From positions 1-37,881 of the forward strand of contig JAMCVZ010000034.1 in the NCBI GenBank assembly GCA_023476565.1: a stretch of 37,881 nucleotides of DNA, read 5' to 3'. A program made the translations under genes and the position numbers. Positions 7,946 through 28,448 of the stretch are shown here, one piece after another (position 1 is the stretch's first letter; every line of letters starts with the position of its first letter). Under the pieces are notes generated by a model. That model made no database searches and was not told where the DNA came from. It saw only the letters and a program-made list of their open reading frames with translations. The stretch is from Nitrospirota bacterium. GTDB lineage: Bacteria > Nitrospirota > Thermodesulfovibrionia > Thermodesulfovibrionales > Dissulfurispiraceae.

Positions 7946-9091
7946 TTTGCTCTCGATAAAATAAAGCTTGCATTGGCGGTTCTGCTGGTCATATCGCTGC
8001 CGTTTTCCGAGTCATTAAAGCTTATATGCCTGTTTCTTCTTCTCTTTATTCTACTTATCCAGCTCCACAGGAGAGAGGTAACTATACATCTGTCAATTGC
8101 CCATTACGGCTTCATAGCGCTCCTCCTGTCCGCCTTGATAAGCAGCGCCTTTGCTGCACATCCGGCCAAGAGCATTAAAGGGGTCAGGGATGTACTTTAT
8201 TACACCATCCCTTTCTTCATAGCGTGCAGCATCACCGGCGAAAAGAGCATAAGGGCTATTCTCTGGGGTCTTTACGCCTCAACAACTGCTGCTGCCCTGT
8301 TCGGAATATTCCAGTCCCTTCAGATACACAGGGCGCTTGAGATACACGCCCTGGGAAACAGCAATTATACCGCTATGTACTTCATAATAGTCATCGCATC
8401 CATGATCGGGACAATTATCTTTTCGGACAGGGATTCAGGCATCTCAAAGGCAGCTATAAGCGTATCCGCTTCCATAGTCCTCGTTGCCGCAGTCATGACT
8501 GCGATGAGGACATCGTTTTTGGCCCTGTTCCTGTTCGTAGCGGTCCTGGCTTTCAAGAACTGGCGGCTCAAGTCGGTGAAAGTGTTTTCCCTTGTGCTTT
8601 TATTGTTGGTTACCGCTTCAGTGTACTCTTATAAGCCCATGTTCCTGAAACTGTTCATGACCCAGTCTCTTGTCAGCAGATCGTATATCTGGCAGCATGC
8701 GCTTACCCTGTTCCTGGAGCACCCGGCTACCGGCATCGGACTCAACCATTTTCAATACACATTTCCCGTTACCTACACGCCCGAGGCCGGCGCAAGCTAT
8801 TTTGATGCACACAACATTTATCTGCAGATTGCCTCTCAGGTCGGGCTCCCCGGGCTTTTTGCCCTTTTCCTGATAATATTCGGGTTCATGGCCGTCTATA
8901 GAAAAATCAGGACGGAATCGGGATTTCAAAAAGGCATACAATACAGCGCCCTCGGAGGCTTTCTGGTCACCTTTGTGGGCGGGATATTCGACACCACGCT
9001 CCATCACGAACATGCCATTGTATTCACTCTCCTGGCGGGCTTCATGTTCGGACTTTATCCCGGGAAGGGACAGTCTCGTGGCAACCCATAA
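7943..9091 (+). CDS. O-antigen ligase / polymerase family membrane protein
   Basis: About 382 residues from ATT 7943 (372 from TTG 7973). A polytopic inner-membrane protein with roughly ten to twelve hydrophobic segments. The large periplasmic loop, about residues 240-290, has YIWQHALTLFLEHPATGIGL and YFDAHNIYLQIASQVGLPGL, the Wzy_C/WaaL signature with the conserved His of DAHN. WaaL enzymes transfer undecaprenyl-linked O-polysaccharide to lipid A-core in the periplasm; Wzy polymerases share the fold, so polymerase activity is an alternative. ATT is preferred as start because the only good Shine-Dalgarno is correctly spaced from it, and the ten added residues form a plausible cytoplasmic lead before the first membrane helix. 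Confidence 0.8.
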   Translation: MFALDKIKLALAVLLVISLPFSESLKLICLFLLLFILLIQLHRREVTIHLSIAHYGFIALLLSALISSAFAAHPAKSIKGVRDVLYYTIPFFIACSITGEKSIRAILWGLYASTTAAALFGIFQSLQIHRALEIHALGNSNYTAMYFIIVIASMIGTIIFSDRDSGISKAAISVSASIVLVAAVMTAMRTSFLALFLFVAVLAFKNWRLKSVKVFSLVLLLLVTASVYSYKPMFLKLFMTQSLVSRSYIWQHALTLFLEHPATGIGLNHFQYTFPVTYTPEAGASYFDAHNIYLQIASQVGLPGLFALFLIIFGFMAVYRKIRTESGFQKGIQYSALGGFLVTFVGGIFDTTLHHEHAIVFTLLAGFMFGLYPGKGQSRGNP

Positions 9092-10496
9092 GGTAAGCAT
9101 CATAATCCTCAACTGGAACAAGCTTGAATATACAAAACAGTGCGTAACCTCAATAGAACACAACACCCGCTACCAGAACTATGAGATAGTCCTTTTCGAC
9201 AACGGCTCCACAGAAACCGGGACAAAAGAATATCTCTCCTCGCTCAAACATAAAGTCATCACAAATCCCGTGAATCTCGGCTTTGCGAGAGGCAATAACA
9301 GGGCCGCTGCCGCAGCAGCAGAAGGCGAATTGCTCCTGTTCCTGAACAACGATACGATTGTCCATGCAAACTGGCTTGAAGAAATGGTCGGAGTAATGCA
9401 GCGGGATCCGGATTGCGGGATCGCCGGCAGCAAACTTCTCTACCCTGACGGGACATTACAGCATATAGGCGTTATGTTCGATCATAAGGGAAACCGCTGC
9501 CATCCCTTCAAAAAGCGCCCGGCTAACATCCCCGAAGCTGCGGCAACAGGTGAATGCGAAGCGGTAACAGGCGCCTGCCTGCTCATCCGGAAGGACATCT
9601 TTGAAAGGGTCGGGGGGTTTGATGAGCAATATCTCCATGGCTCGGAAGATATCGATTTATGCCTCAAGGTAAGGAAGCTGGGGTTGAAGGTAATGTACTG
9701 TTCCGGCAGTGTTCTGACTCATTTTGAACAGGTATCGTTAAAAGTCAGGGGCAGCCGGTTTAAAAAAAGGACCACAAGGCAAAACAACAGGCTCTTCTTT
9801 AAAAAATGGGGTGATACGCTGGATGATTTCAGACTGCCCAACGACCTTTCCGGTCTGAAGCCCTATCATTATTACCACCATACCCGCTCTGAGCTGCTAA
9901 GGCTGATTCCTCCCGGGGCAAAATTCATACTGGACGTCGGCTGCAGCAGCGGCATGCTCGGCAAGACCCTTAAAGATTCGAACGATAATCTGACAGTATG
10001 GGGGATCGAGATAAACGGCGCCATTGCGCAGGAAGCGGAAAGACGTCTCGATAAAGTCTTTGTGAAGGACATTGAAAAAAGCGAGCCCCTGTTCAGCGAG
10101 CAGACCCTCTTCGACTGCATCATATTTGCCGACGTGCTTGAACATCTGAGGGATCCCTGGGCTGCGCTGCAGAGATTCAGCAAGCACCTCTCCCCCGGGG
10201 GCACGGTAGTATGCAGCATCCCCAACATCCAGCACTATAAGATCATAAAAGATCTCATCCTGGACAGATGGCTGTACAGGGCGGAAGGTATCCTGGACAG
10301 AGATCATGTGCGTTTCTTCTCTCTTGCCACTATAAAGAATATGTGCGCGGTATCCGGCTATAAGATCATTGCAATCGAAAGGAATGAAAAAGCAGGCACG
10401 CTTCTCAAGGTAGCGAACAGGCTGCTGTGCAACAAATTAGACAAATTCCTCACCCAGCAATACCTGATTATATGCGAGAGACGGGGAGCACGGTAA
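9078..10496 (+). CDS. GT2 glycosyltransferase fused to a SAM-dependent methyltransferase
   Basis: A 472-residue two-domain protein. Residues about 5-260 are a GT-A family 2 enzyme: VSIIILNWNKLEYTKQCVTS, the nucleotide-binding DNGS, LLFLNNDT (DxD-like metal site), GACLLIRKDIFERVGGFDE and SEDIDLCLKVRKLG, as in rhamnosyltransferase-like proteins. Residues about 285-470 are a class I methyltransferase: FILDVGCSSGMLGKTL (SAM-binding motif I), then IIFADVLEHLRDPW and LSPGGTVVCSIPN. The start is GTG 9078, overlapping the ligase stop, preceded by a purine-rich Shine-Dalgarno at 9062-9070; the in-frame extension to 8973 lies inside the ligase gene. It probably adds and O-methylates, or caps, a sugar of the O-antigen or core. 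Confidence 0.85.
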   Translation: MATHKVSIIILNWNKLEYTKQCVTSIEHNTRYQNYEIVLFDNGSTETGTKEYLSSLKHKVITNPVNLGFARGNNRAAAAAAEGELLLFLNNDTIVHANWLEEMVGVMQRDPDCGIAGSKLLYPDGTLQHIGVMFDHKGNRCHPFKKRPANIPEAAATGECEAVTGACLLIRKDIFERVGGFDEQYLHGSEDIDLCLKVRKLGLKVMYCSGSVLTHFEQVSLKVRGSRFKKRTTRQNNRLFFKKWGDTLDDFRLPNDLSGLKPYHYYHHTRSELLRLIPPGAKFILDVGCSSGMLGKTLKDSNDNLTVWGIEINGAIAQEAERRLDKVFVKDIEKSEPLFSEQTLFDCIIFADVLEHLRDPWAALQRFSKHLSPGGTVVCSIPNIQHYKIIKDLILDRWLYRAEGILDRDHVRFFSLATIKNMCAVSGYKIIAIERNEKAGTLLKVANRLLCNKLDKFLTQQYLIICERRGAR

Positions 10497-25835: not shown

Positions 25836-26177
25836 ATGCGCTCACTAAGCAAAAAAGCCGAACTGCTGAAAATAATTGCCCATCCGGTCCGCATCAGCAT
25901 CCTTGAAGAGCTTACCAAAGGCATAAAATGTGTCAGCGATTTTGAAGAGTTTCTCGACATAAGCCAGCCCAACGTATCCCAGCATTTATCCCTCCTCAGA
26001 AAGCATGATGTTATCGATTATTATATCGACGGGAGACTCAGGTGCTACTTCCTCAAAGATCCTCTGATACCCGACATCATTGAACTTTTAAACAAAGTTT
26101 ATGAGGAGGAACTGCCTGCTCCTGCATGCTGCCCGGTAACCAGAAAAGGGACCTACCCGGGTGAAAGGAGGCGCTGA
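25836..26177 (+). CDS. ArsR/SmtB-family transcriptional regulator
   Basis: A 113-residue winged-helix repressor. AELLKIIAHPVRISILEEL is the N-terminal ArsR signature; ISQPNVSQHLSLLRKHDVID is the recognition helix-turn-helix; YYIDGRLRCYFLKDP forms the wing. The classic metal-site ELCVCDL is replaced by IKCVSDFEEF with one Cys. A C-terminal ACCP pair of cysteines could, with that Cys, sense thiol oxidants, persulfide or selenium compounds (inference). I start at ATG 25836, with AGGAGG six bases upstream; an in-frame ATG at 25812 overlaps the operator. It heads the operon with the DsrE-like selenoprotein about 65 bases downstream. Confidence 0.88.
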   Translation: MRSLSKKAELLKIIAHPVRISILEELTKGIKCVSDFEEFLDISQPNVSQHLSLLRKHDVIDYYIDGRLRCYFLKDPLIPDIIELLNKVYEEELPAPACCPVTRKGTYPGERRR

Positions 26178-26243
26178 TGAAGATAGGGATTATAAAGAGA
26201 AGTGATAGGGTAATAACATTCTGAATTCGGGGAGGAGATGACA

Positions 26244-26588
26244 ATGCAAAAAGAGATCGTGATGTTTCTTGCGACAACGCCTTACAGTTTTGAAAATACA
26301 CACACTATCCTCAAACTGGCGGACGCAGCCCTGCGGAAGGGGCAGAAAGTCAGGCTTATCGCGTCAGGAGACGGCGTTTTCTCGATTGTTAAGGGGCAAG
26401 TTCCCAAGTCGCTTTCGGCGCTGGAAGATCTTGTGGGCAGAGGGCTGAAGGTGGACATATGAACAGGCTGCATGAAGACCCGCGGTCTTGCGGCTGACGA
26501 TTCCGTTGACGGTGGTGAGATGAGCTCGCTCAAGGGGCTTTTCAATGTGATCAAGACAAATCCTGTTTTTTTAAACTTCGGCGTATAG
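26244..26588 (+). CDS. DsrE-family selenoprotein (in-frame UGA read as selenocysteine)
   Basis: A 114-residue DsrE/TusD-superfamily protein if TGA at 26460-26462 is read as Sec73. Residues 1-72 form the DsrE fold start (LATTPYSFENTHTILKLADA, KVRLIASGDGVFSIVKG). The frame continues past the TGA as T-G-C-M-K-T-R-G-L-A-A-D-D and ends at TAG 26586 in PVFLNFGV. In DsrE-family homologues the equivalent site is a Cys in a C-x-x-C-like pattern before RGL, so here it becomes Sec-x-x-Cys (U73, C76). A stem-loop suited to SECIS function follows the UGA. ATG 26244 has the best Shine-Dalgarno spacing (8 bases); ATG 26238 is only two bases from it. Conventional callers would truncate it at 26462. Confidence 0.88.
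26467..26494 (+). promoter_or_regulatory. Bacterial SECIS-like hairpin of the DsrE-like gene
   Basis: GCTGC (26467-26471) pairs with GCGGC (26490-26494, one G-U). A three-base bulge follows, then AAGACC (26475-26480) pairs perfectly with GGTCTT (26484-26489) around a CGC loop. The apex is about 20 bases past the UGA, the distance used by SelB-dependent bacterial SECIS elements. Confidence 0.65.
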
Positions 26589-26596
26589 GAGAGCAT

Positions 26597-26950
26597 ATGG
26601 AAAGTATCAGCATAATCTTAAGAAGAGCGCCGTACGGTACCATCGATACGCCTGAGGCTATCCGCCACGCCCTTGGGGGAGTGATTGAAGATATGACAGT
26701 AAAGCTGATTCTTGTAGATGGCGGGGTAAACGCGGCAAGAAAAGGACAGGATACCTCCTCAACCGAATACTTGAATGCAGAATCAGGGATCAGGGACTGC
26801 ATCGATATGGGAACTGAGGTATACGCCGATAAAGCCTCTATAAAAGAAGAATCCCTTGAAAGCAGCGACATCATAGAGGGAGTAATCGTCGCGAGCAGTT
26901 CAGAGCTTGCCGAAATTATTGCTAACAGCAACACAACCATGATCTTTTAG
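26597..26950 (+). CDS. DsrF/TusC-like sulfur relay protein
   Basis: A 117-residue DsrE/DsrF-superfamily protein: MESISIILRRAPYGTIDTPE opens the alpha/beta fold, and IRHALGGVIEDMTVKLILVD is the characteristic second helix and strand. DsrEFH/TusBCD complexes pass sulfane sulfur from protein to protein; DsrF/TusC is a structural subunit. One Cys (RDCIDMG) is present. AGGAG overlaps the stop of the selenoprotein gene, five bases before the ATG, so the two are coupled. Assigned as the F/C subunit by order E-F-H and by size. Confidence 0.8.
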   Translation: MESISIILRRAPYGTIDTPEAIRHALGGVIEDMTVKLILVDGGVNAARKGQDTSSTEYLNAESGIRDCIDMGTEVYADKASIKEESLESSDIIEGVIVASSSELAEIIANSNTTMIF

Positions 26951-26960
26951 GGGGGAATCC

Positions 26961-27242
26961 ATGCTTGTAATTATCAAGAGTGCGCCGGGCACGCCCGAAG
27001 GGAAGCGGGGCATCAAGCTGGCACGCGATATGGCTGCAGATGTCTGCCTGATGCAGAACGCCGTATATTTTGCTCATGATGAAAGGCTCGAGGGCTTTTG
27101 CGGAGCAGTATATGTGCTTGATGACGACTGCACGCTCAGGGGGTTAAGCGATAGCCGGCTCAAAAAAAGCATAAAGAAGCTGGACTACGATAGCCTTGTA
27201 GATGTGATAGTAAACGAGGATAAGATAATCGGGGCATTTTAA
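26961..27242 (+). CDS. DsrH/TusB-like sulfur relay protein
   Basis: A 93-residue protein of the DsrH/TusB family: MLVIIKSAPGTPEGKRG start, VCLMQNAVYFA (the strand before the conserved site), then VYVLDDDCTLRGLSDSRL, matching the usual YvL-x-x-D-x-x-x-RG pattern. In DsrEFH the H subunit contributes a possible sulfur-accepting Cys. Ten bases separate it from the DsrF-like gene, with AGGGGGGA as Shine-Dalgarno. With its two neighbours it completes an EFH set, but no dsrC/tusE, dsrAB or tusA lies in the window. Confidence 0.82.
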   Translation: MLVIIKSAPGTPEGKRGIKLARDMAADVCLMQNAVYFAHDERLEGFCGAVYVLDDDCTLRGLSDSRLKKSIKKLDYDSLVDVIVNEDKIIGAF

Positions 27243-27401: not shown

Positions 27402-28448
27402 ATGGACATCAAGCTTACAGAACTCTCAACCTGCGCAGGCTGAGCATCGAAATTCAGTCCTTCGGACCTGTCCCACGTGCTGGGGCAGCTACCTAAAATT
27501 ATGGATCCCAATGTGCTCGTCGGCACTGCGAATGCGGACGACGCCGGAGTATATCGTATTACGGACGACATCGCAGTTGTCCTTACTACCGATTTTTTTA
27601 CGCCGATTGTCGACGATCCGTACTGGTTCGGCGCAATTGCCGCTGCCAATTCACTCTCGGACGTCTATGCCATGGGCGGCAGGCCCGTTGCGGCATTGAA
27701 CATCGCCATGTTCCCGAACAATCCCGATTTCTTCCCCTCGCTGAAAGGCATCGTTCAGGGCGGTATCGATAAGATGGCGGAAGCCGGGGTACCCGTCATA
27801 GGAGGGCATACCATAAGGGACAGAGAGCCCAAATACGGATTCGCAGTTATGGGAATTATTCACCCCGGCAGGATACTTGACAACTCAAAGGCCCGGCCGG
27901 GTGATGCGCTGATACTCACCAAAAAGATAGGCACCGGCATCATTTCCACAGGGGTAAAGGCCGGGAAGTGCAGCGCTGCCGTTATCGGGGAGTTTACAAA
28001 ATCCATGGCAACATTGAACAGGAGGGCAAGCGAGGTTATGCTCGAAGCAGGTGTCAGTACGGCAACCGATATAACAGGATTCGGCCTGATCGGACATCTG
28101 AACGAAGTTCTCTCCGCAAGCAGATGCCGGGCGCGGCTTTCTGCAAGCCATGTCCCATTTTTCGAAGATGCCGTAAGGCTCGCCGGTATGGATGTAATTC
28201 CCGGGGGCACGAGGGAAAACAGAAAGATTTTCGAGCAGGACGTTACCTGGGGCGAAGGCGTTCCCGAGGTTGAAAAATTTCTATTGAATGATGCGCAGAC
28301 ATCGGGAGGGCTCCTCATTTTTGTACCGGAAGAGGAGGAGAATATGCTCGCTGCCGCCCTTCAAAAAGAAGGCATACCGGCGGCCCATATCGGGGAAGTA
28401 TTTGATGAGGGCGCGGGAGATTACAAGAGGATTTACGTTGATAAATAA
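27402..28448 (+). CDS. selD: Selenide, water dikinase; itself a selenoprotein
   Basis: A 348-residue SelD that makes selenophosphate from selenide and ATP, for Sec and 2-selenouridine synthesis. Starting at ATG 27402 (AAGGAG five bases upstream) the frame reads MDIKLTELSTCAG, then TGA at 27441-27443, then ASKFSPSDL. Sec14 occupies the catalytic position (Cys17 in E. coli), three residues before the essential Lys (K17 here). YRITDDIAVVLTTDFFTPIV, DVYAMGGRPVAALNI and GGHTIRDREPKYGFAVMG are the ATP/Mg motifs. Without Sec reading, callers start at 27477 and lose the active site. It lies downstream of the DsrEFH-like selenoprotein operon. Confidence 0.94.
27455..27470 (+). promoter_or_regulatory. 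Bacterial SECIS-like hairpin of selD
   Basis: CAGTCC (27455-27460) pairs with GGA-(bulged C)-CTG (27464-27470) around a TTC loop, the apex about 20 bases past the UGA. The spacing matches that of the DsrE-like gene's hairpin. Confidence 0.55.

Follow-up and report, generated by a model that had tools for sequence, protein, structure and literature searches.

A predicted selenocysteine-containing DsrE-like protein in a DsrEFH-type gene set of Nitrospirota

An in-frame UGA in a dsrE-like gene of a Nitrospirota bacterium is very probably read through as selenocysteine (Sec), and a selenoprotein of the DsrE family is the best explanation of the locus. The gene lies in the window (the whole stretch of 37 881 nt that was analysed) and is followed by dsrF- and dsrH-like genes. 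Its reading as a DsrE-family selenoprotein, proposed in an earlier note made from the letters of the window, is upheld by a conserved TGA with a conserved protein downstream, a covarying hairpin, the placing of Sec at a functional Cys and the presence of selA and selB. With rather less assurance, we favour a dedicated selenium-dependent DsrEFH-type sulfurtransferase in Nitrospirota, which would be coupled to sulfide:quinone reductase (SQR), use Sec as its sulfur carrier (Se–S), be separate from the Cys-type set near the dsr genes and be hidden from normal gene calling. The features of the locus, all on the + strand, are as follows.

25836–26177, +, ArsR/SmtB-type regulator of 113 aa, conserved as first gene of the cassette (HTH_5, E=6.1e-10; NF033788, 71.3 bits, cut-off 55)
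26231–26237, +, GGAGGAG, from the sequence a probable ribosome-binding site serving the ATG at 26244
26244–26588, +, predicted Sec-containing DsrE-like protein of 114 aa with the motif U-T-G-C (first ATG, at 26238, also possible)
26460–26462, +, in-frame TGA, conserved in homologues and very probably read as Sec (residue 73)
26478–26495, +, predicted bacterial SECIS hairpin (arms 26478–26484 and 26489–26495, loop GUCU 26485–26488)
26597–26950, +, DsrF/TusC-like subunit of 117 aa (PF02635, E=8.2e-10; TIGR03010 TusC, 5.5e-8, below cut-off)
26961–27242, +, DsrH/TusB-like subunit of 93 aa (PF04077 DsrH, E=4.1e-10; TIGR03011 TusB, 1e-10, just below cut-off)
27402–28448, +, selD with its own in-frame TGA at 27441–27443 (CAG-U-ASK; TIGR00476, 361.8 bits)

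Reading frame and conservation of the TGA codon

The frame holds a single in-frame TGA, after which it continues for 41 sense codons, as had been claimed, to a TAG at 26586–26588. The ATG at 26244 is the likely start, since the GGAGGAG at 26231–26237 fits it and homologues begin with MQKEI there; with this start the UGA is residue 73 of 114, the position that the earlier note had given. The product matched Pfam DsrE (PF02635) over residues 8–107, on both sides of the UGA (E=3.9e-12; 46.8 bits against a curated cut-off of 22.7), and scored 13.0 bits against the TusD/DsrE equivalog TIGR03012, missing its cut-off of 89.25.

All 15 full-length homologues found on public contigs of independent genomes carried a TGA at exactly the same codon, with a conserved U-T-G-C-(M/L/I) segment there. 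A search of 296 Nitrospirota genomes for relatives yielded 22 loci covering the codon in a first clade (clade A; 72–99 % identity, the own genome counted) and a further 51 at greater distance in a second (clade B; 40–50 % identity), each locus with one TGA. The TGA was present in every relative of at least 72 % identity that covered the codon. Stop-free loci comprised four of one family (G030, G045, G021 and G012), fragments ending before or starting after the position of the TGA codon, and remote relatives. Reading of the codon in its context covered 52 fetched loci, and the sequences there were distinct in 43 of them. In a tree of Sec and Cys forms, the Cys forms of one family (f21) were placed among clade B with modest support. 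Three remote DsrE-like matches of 31–33 % identity, each with one TGA (G006:C170:226–501, G016:C78:32189–32464 and G025:C117:12415–12690), are possibly a third Sec-type group. A plasmid collection contained only two DsrE matches, both distant (~31 % identity).

Among 19 homologues pN/pS was 0.16 after the TGA and 0.11 before it, which indicates strong purifying selection on the sequence 3' of this codon. Both other frames downstream of the TGA contain stops. Taken alone, the openness of the frame after the TGA is weak evidence, since a shuffled stretch was open with probability 0.13. Comparison across genomes is strong evidence and reveals a constraint for read-through of UGA 26460–26462; we infer the actual insertion of Sec there.

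A conserved hairpin downstream of the UGA

An RNAalifold consensus for 43 distinct, gap-free aligned sequences from both clades placed a hairpin at 26478–26495, i.e. at bases 16–33 after the TGA. Six of its seven pairs were kept in the window sequence and five of the seven showed changes on both sides (covariation). Paired cells made up 90.4 % of the hairpin, compared with 71.8 % in shuffles, none of which attained 90.4 %, and at most 54.8 % when the hairpin was slid along the alignment. The first loop base was G in all 43 sequences and the first two were GU in 41 of them. Bacterial SECIS elements are recognized by a G in their small apical loop (PMC1088965), and the hairpin at 26478–26495 has such a G and lies shortly after the UGA. 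It is inside coding sequence, so constraint on the protein adds to its conservation, though this hardly explains the paired changes.

Folding of the window alone gave unremarkable energies (z from −1.9 to 0 for the different stretches) and was dropped as non-significant in favour of the comparative evidence. The earlier claim of a bulged stem-loop at SECIS distance thus holds as far as the conserved hairpin goes, but not for the fold of the window alone, in which the hairpin of lowest energy is a different one.

Selenocysteine machinery

In the window's own genome selA is intact and selB is present in two pieces, separated at a C run by a shift of one base (about 2498–2514 of locus L007, G000:C47) that is probably a sequence or assembly error in a homopolymer. 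Searches of this assembly with the Rfam model, ARAGORN and a pattern did not recover selC, the anticodon-arm pattern having no match with three mismatches allowed; a DNA search with the selC region of the same-genus genome, run without a positive control, also gave no match. Two Rfam tRNA-Sec matches in this genome reached the gathering score of 47 bits (G000:C37:38799–38885 and C70:5–91), but were assigned to tRNA-Ser by ARAGORN and are false positives. A location of selC inside selB has been reported for some Nitrospirae (PMC13188914); it was looked for here and not seen.

The selC model scored above 60 bits in 34 of 40 genomes (own plus 39 relatives), the same-genus genome included, and all 16 loci that were checked with ARAGORN were called tRNA-SeC. 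The own assembly is a draft, 96 % complete and in 73 contigs, and for this reason a gap in the assembly is the simplest explanation of the missing selC, if not a proven one. Of the three genes that the earlier note had named for a check, selA and the split selB are therefore present, whereas selC was not found in the draft but occurs in close relatives; the refuting test that the note had set on selB and selC thus goes only half in its favour here. Co-occurrence of selC and Sec-type DsrE over 33 genomes was not significant (p=0.34), the cassette being missing from many genomes that have selC.

The residue replaced by Sec73

Three Cys-type homologues (L089, L095 and L096) have C-G-T-C at the columns of U-T-G-C, and Escherichia coli YchN, the closest solved relative in sequence (1jx7) and a Cys protein, aligns C-K-T-C there (E=1.4e-8). 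These forms agree with the proposal that the UGA stands where a C-x-x-C pattern has its first Cys, and with the Cys expected at position 73 of DsrE proteins. The two outer positions of UxxC are invariant in the alignment.

An AlphaFold model of the Sec-containing protein (pLDDT 89.6) matched YchN, DsrE (2hy5_A, TM 0.84), TusD (2d1p_A) and further chains of the DsrE family, well ahead of unrelated folds, and placed Sec at a strand–helix junction. PDB matches to designed PPR repeats were rejected as repeat-sum artefacts, in which no single stretch passes. Cys78 is the sulfur-binding, essential residue of Allochromatium vinosum DsrE and E. coli TusD (PMC3397948), and in the type II DsrE of cable bacteria Cys67 was shown by mutation to be such a residue (PMC13293266). 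Judged from the residue alignment with YchN, a profile alignment of the range 4–90 with 2hy5_A 2–91 and the fold match of the model, the predicted Sec73 corresponds to Cys78, the residue of DsrE/TusD that carries the persulfide.

Gene neighbourhood

The DsrE-, DsrF- and DsrH-type genes stand in tandem, as in a DsrEFH/TusBCD set, the DsrF- and DsrH-like products each scoring above the Pfam cut-off and below the NCBIfam TusC or TusB cut-off. The order that recurred in the fetched loci was ArsR, Sec-type DsrE, DsrF, DsrH, SQR and an MMPL transporter, with the ArsR gene upstream of dsrE in the majority of related loci. Some loci lacked part of the cassette, or had it beyond the stretch read. The SQR-like partner was compared with solved SQRs and matched them with E=1.7e-100 (3hyv).

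The window locus is an exception, with selD after dsrH and no SQR or MMPL gene. The earlier note had set a UGA-containing selD next to the Sec-type dsrE; the TGA in selD is there, but dsrF and dsrH intervene, selD starting 160 bp after dsrH. Only one other fetched locus, L028, has selD near the cassette: a UGA-containing selD lies ~4 kb from dsrE, beyond the cassette SQR, and between SQR and selD are genes for a NifS-like desulfurase and a sterol-desaturase-like protein (8200–10487). Since selD is not a conserved neighbour of the cassette, its proximity is a weak argument and says little about function.

The own genome has three DsrEFH-like sets in total, two of them with Sec. A second Sec-type DsrE, 44 % identical to the first and with its own TGA (G000:C58:36094–36444; 7089–7445 of L020, minus strand), belongs to a complete cassette with ArsR, DsrF, DsrH, SQR and MMPL and without selD. 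On the same contig a Cys-type DsrH-E-F set with the motif C-E-A-C...R-G (C58:4006–5093; L151) lies about 10 kb from dsrA/dsrB-like genes at C58:15522–17714. NrfD- and ferredoxin-like genes lie beyond this Cys-type set. The dsrA match (L136, G000:C58:16557–17714) has one in-frame TAA in the matched range.

Proposed function and alternatives

The position of Sec and the conservation of the gene set come from comparison of the loci; for complex formation, sulfur transfer, substrate and regulation we infer the following. The UGA would be decoded as Sec by SelB and tRNA-Sec, aided by the hairpin just downstream, and the DsrE-like product would most likely assemble with the adjacent DsrF- and DsrH-like proteins as a complex of the DsrEFH/TusBCD type. 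The selenol of Sec73 would act in the role of the persulfide-carrying Cys78, taking up sulfane sulfur from sulfide and then handing it on or reducing it, in sulfide oxidation or detoxification; the carrier would serve by way of SQR, under the ArsR-type regulator. A sulfane-sulfur role is suggested by the place of the set beside SQR and MMPL in most relatives and by the ArsR gene upstream. Sensing of sulfane sulfur is known for ArsR-type regulators of other systems (PMC12423496). On balance we lean towards this role as a sulfur carrier.

That the TGA is a true stop, leaving a pseudogene or a protein of 72 residues with a downstream frame open by chance, is extremely improbable: the missing selC and the open shuffled stretches noted above would fit it, but the same TGA and a conserved downstream protein occur in dozens of genomes, together with the purifying selection and the covarying hairpin. 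The earlier note had named a true stop with no conservation downstream in close relatives as grounds for giving up its reading, and what the relatives have is the same TGA with a conserved protein after it. A relay in which the Sec-containing DsrEFH set delivers selenium in place of sulfur to the product of the downstream selD, and so takes part in selenium metabolism, is improbable. It would account for the selD that follows dsrH here, for the NifS-like desulfurase and selD after the cassette of L028 and for the link between selenium use and YedF, which has a TusA-like and a DsrE-like domain (PMC5322559); but the recurrent neighbours are SQR, MMPL and ArsR, selD is near the set in two fetched loci only, and the second Sec cassette of the own genome has SQR and MMPL but no selD. 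Lack of conservation of selD near the cassette was the reason for not putting the relay first.

A thiol-disulfide redox protein, in which a selenenylsulfide of UxxC reduces a substrate and no persulfide is carried, is a serious rival and a possible, if not a probable, one. It would suit the two invariant positions of UxxC, and earlier surveys put DsrE-like UxxC proteins among the thiol oxidoreductases (PMC1088965, PMC2398784). Sulfur trafficking is favoured instead by the DsrF and DsrH partners, which are conserved along with the DsrE-like protein, and by the neighbouring SQR, and the CxxC spacing is common to YchN and to the Cys-type DsrE near dsrAB in the own genome. The redox and carrier roles are also compatible, in that a resolving Cys could release the persulfide from Sec.

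Relation to known systems

DsrE-like UxxC selenoproteins of PF02635 have been reported since 2005, so the present protein is a member of a known selenoprotein family. Two sequences came from the Sargasso Sea in 2005, and others from Desulfovibrio vulgaris in 2006 and from the GOS data in 2008; WP_014524487.1 is given in a 2026 review. These share with the present protein the DsrE family, UxxC and a bacterial SECIS element downstream, but in the passages of those reports that list them they appear as single proteins, with no partner genes or function, whereas the present one belongs to a set of three subunits that recurs, with SQR, MMPL and ArsR, across Nitrospirota. Neither a Sec-type DsrEFH set nor the SQR/MMPL/ArsR context was found in the open literature (subscription papers lay outside the search), and a three-gene DsrEFH-type set with Sec as the sulfur-carrying residue appears to be new.

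Type I DsrEFH of A. vinosum (2HY5) and TusBCD of E. coli (2D1P) likewise consist of tandem small subunits of the DsrE, DsrF and DsrH families and have the same fold, with Cys78 at the place of Sec. The set in the window differs from them in having Sec for Cys and an extra Cys three residues on, in that none of its subunits passes the NCBIfam TusB, TusC or TusD cut-offs and in not lying beside dsr genes. A. vinosum needs Cys20 of DsrH in vivo; the DsrH of several Sec cassettes lacks any Cys, so this function is not general here. Type II DsrEFH of cable bacteria (ISME J 2026) is also a divergent three-gene set of Nitrospirota and sulfate reducers with a single sulfur-binding position in DsrE, but it is based on Cys67 and syntenic with tusA and yeeE, whereas the complete Sec cassettes are surrounded by ArsR, SQR and MMPL. 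In the 2026 survey 99.3 % of type II DsrEFH sequences had the functional Cys (PMC13293266); the word selenium is absent from the survey.

The presence of DsrEFH serves to infer the sulfur oxidation ability of sulfate reducers. Sec-type dsrE genes, which gene calling would cut at the UGA, could be missed in DsrEFH surveys and would tend to drop out of them because of such truncated calls. If the Sec-type sets are real, many Nitrospirota would have one or two further DsrEFH sets, and the supply of selenium would matter for their sulfur chemistry; the contribution of Sec to a persulfide carrier would also become open to test.
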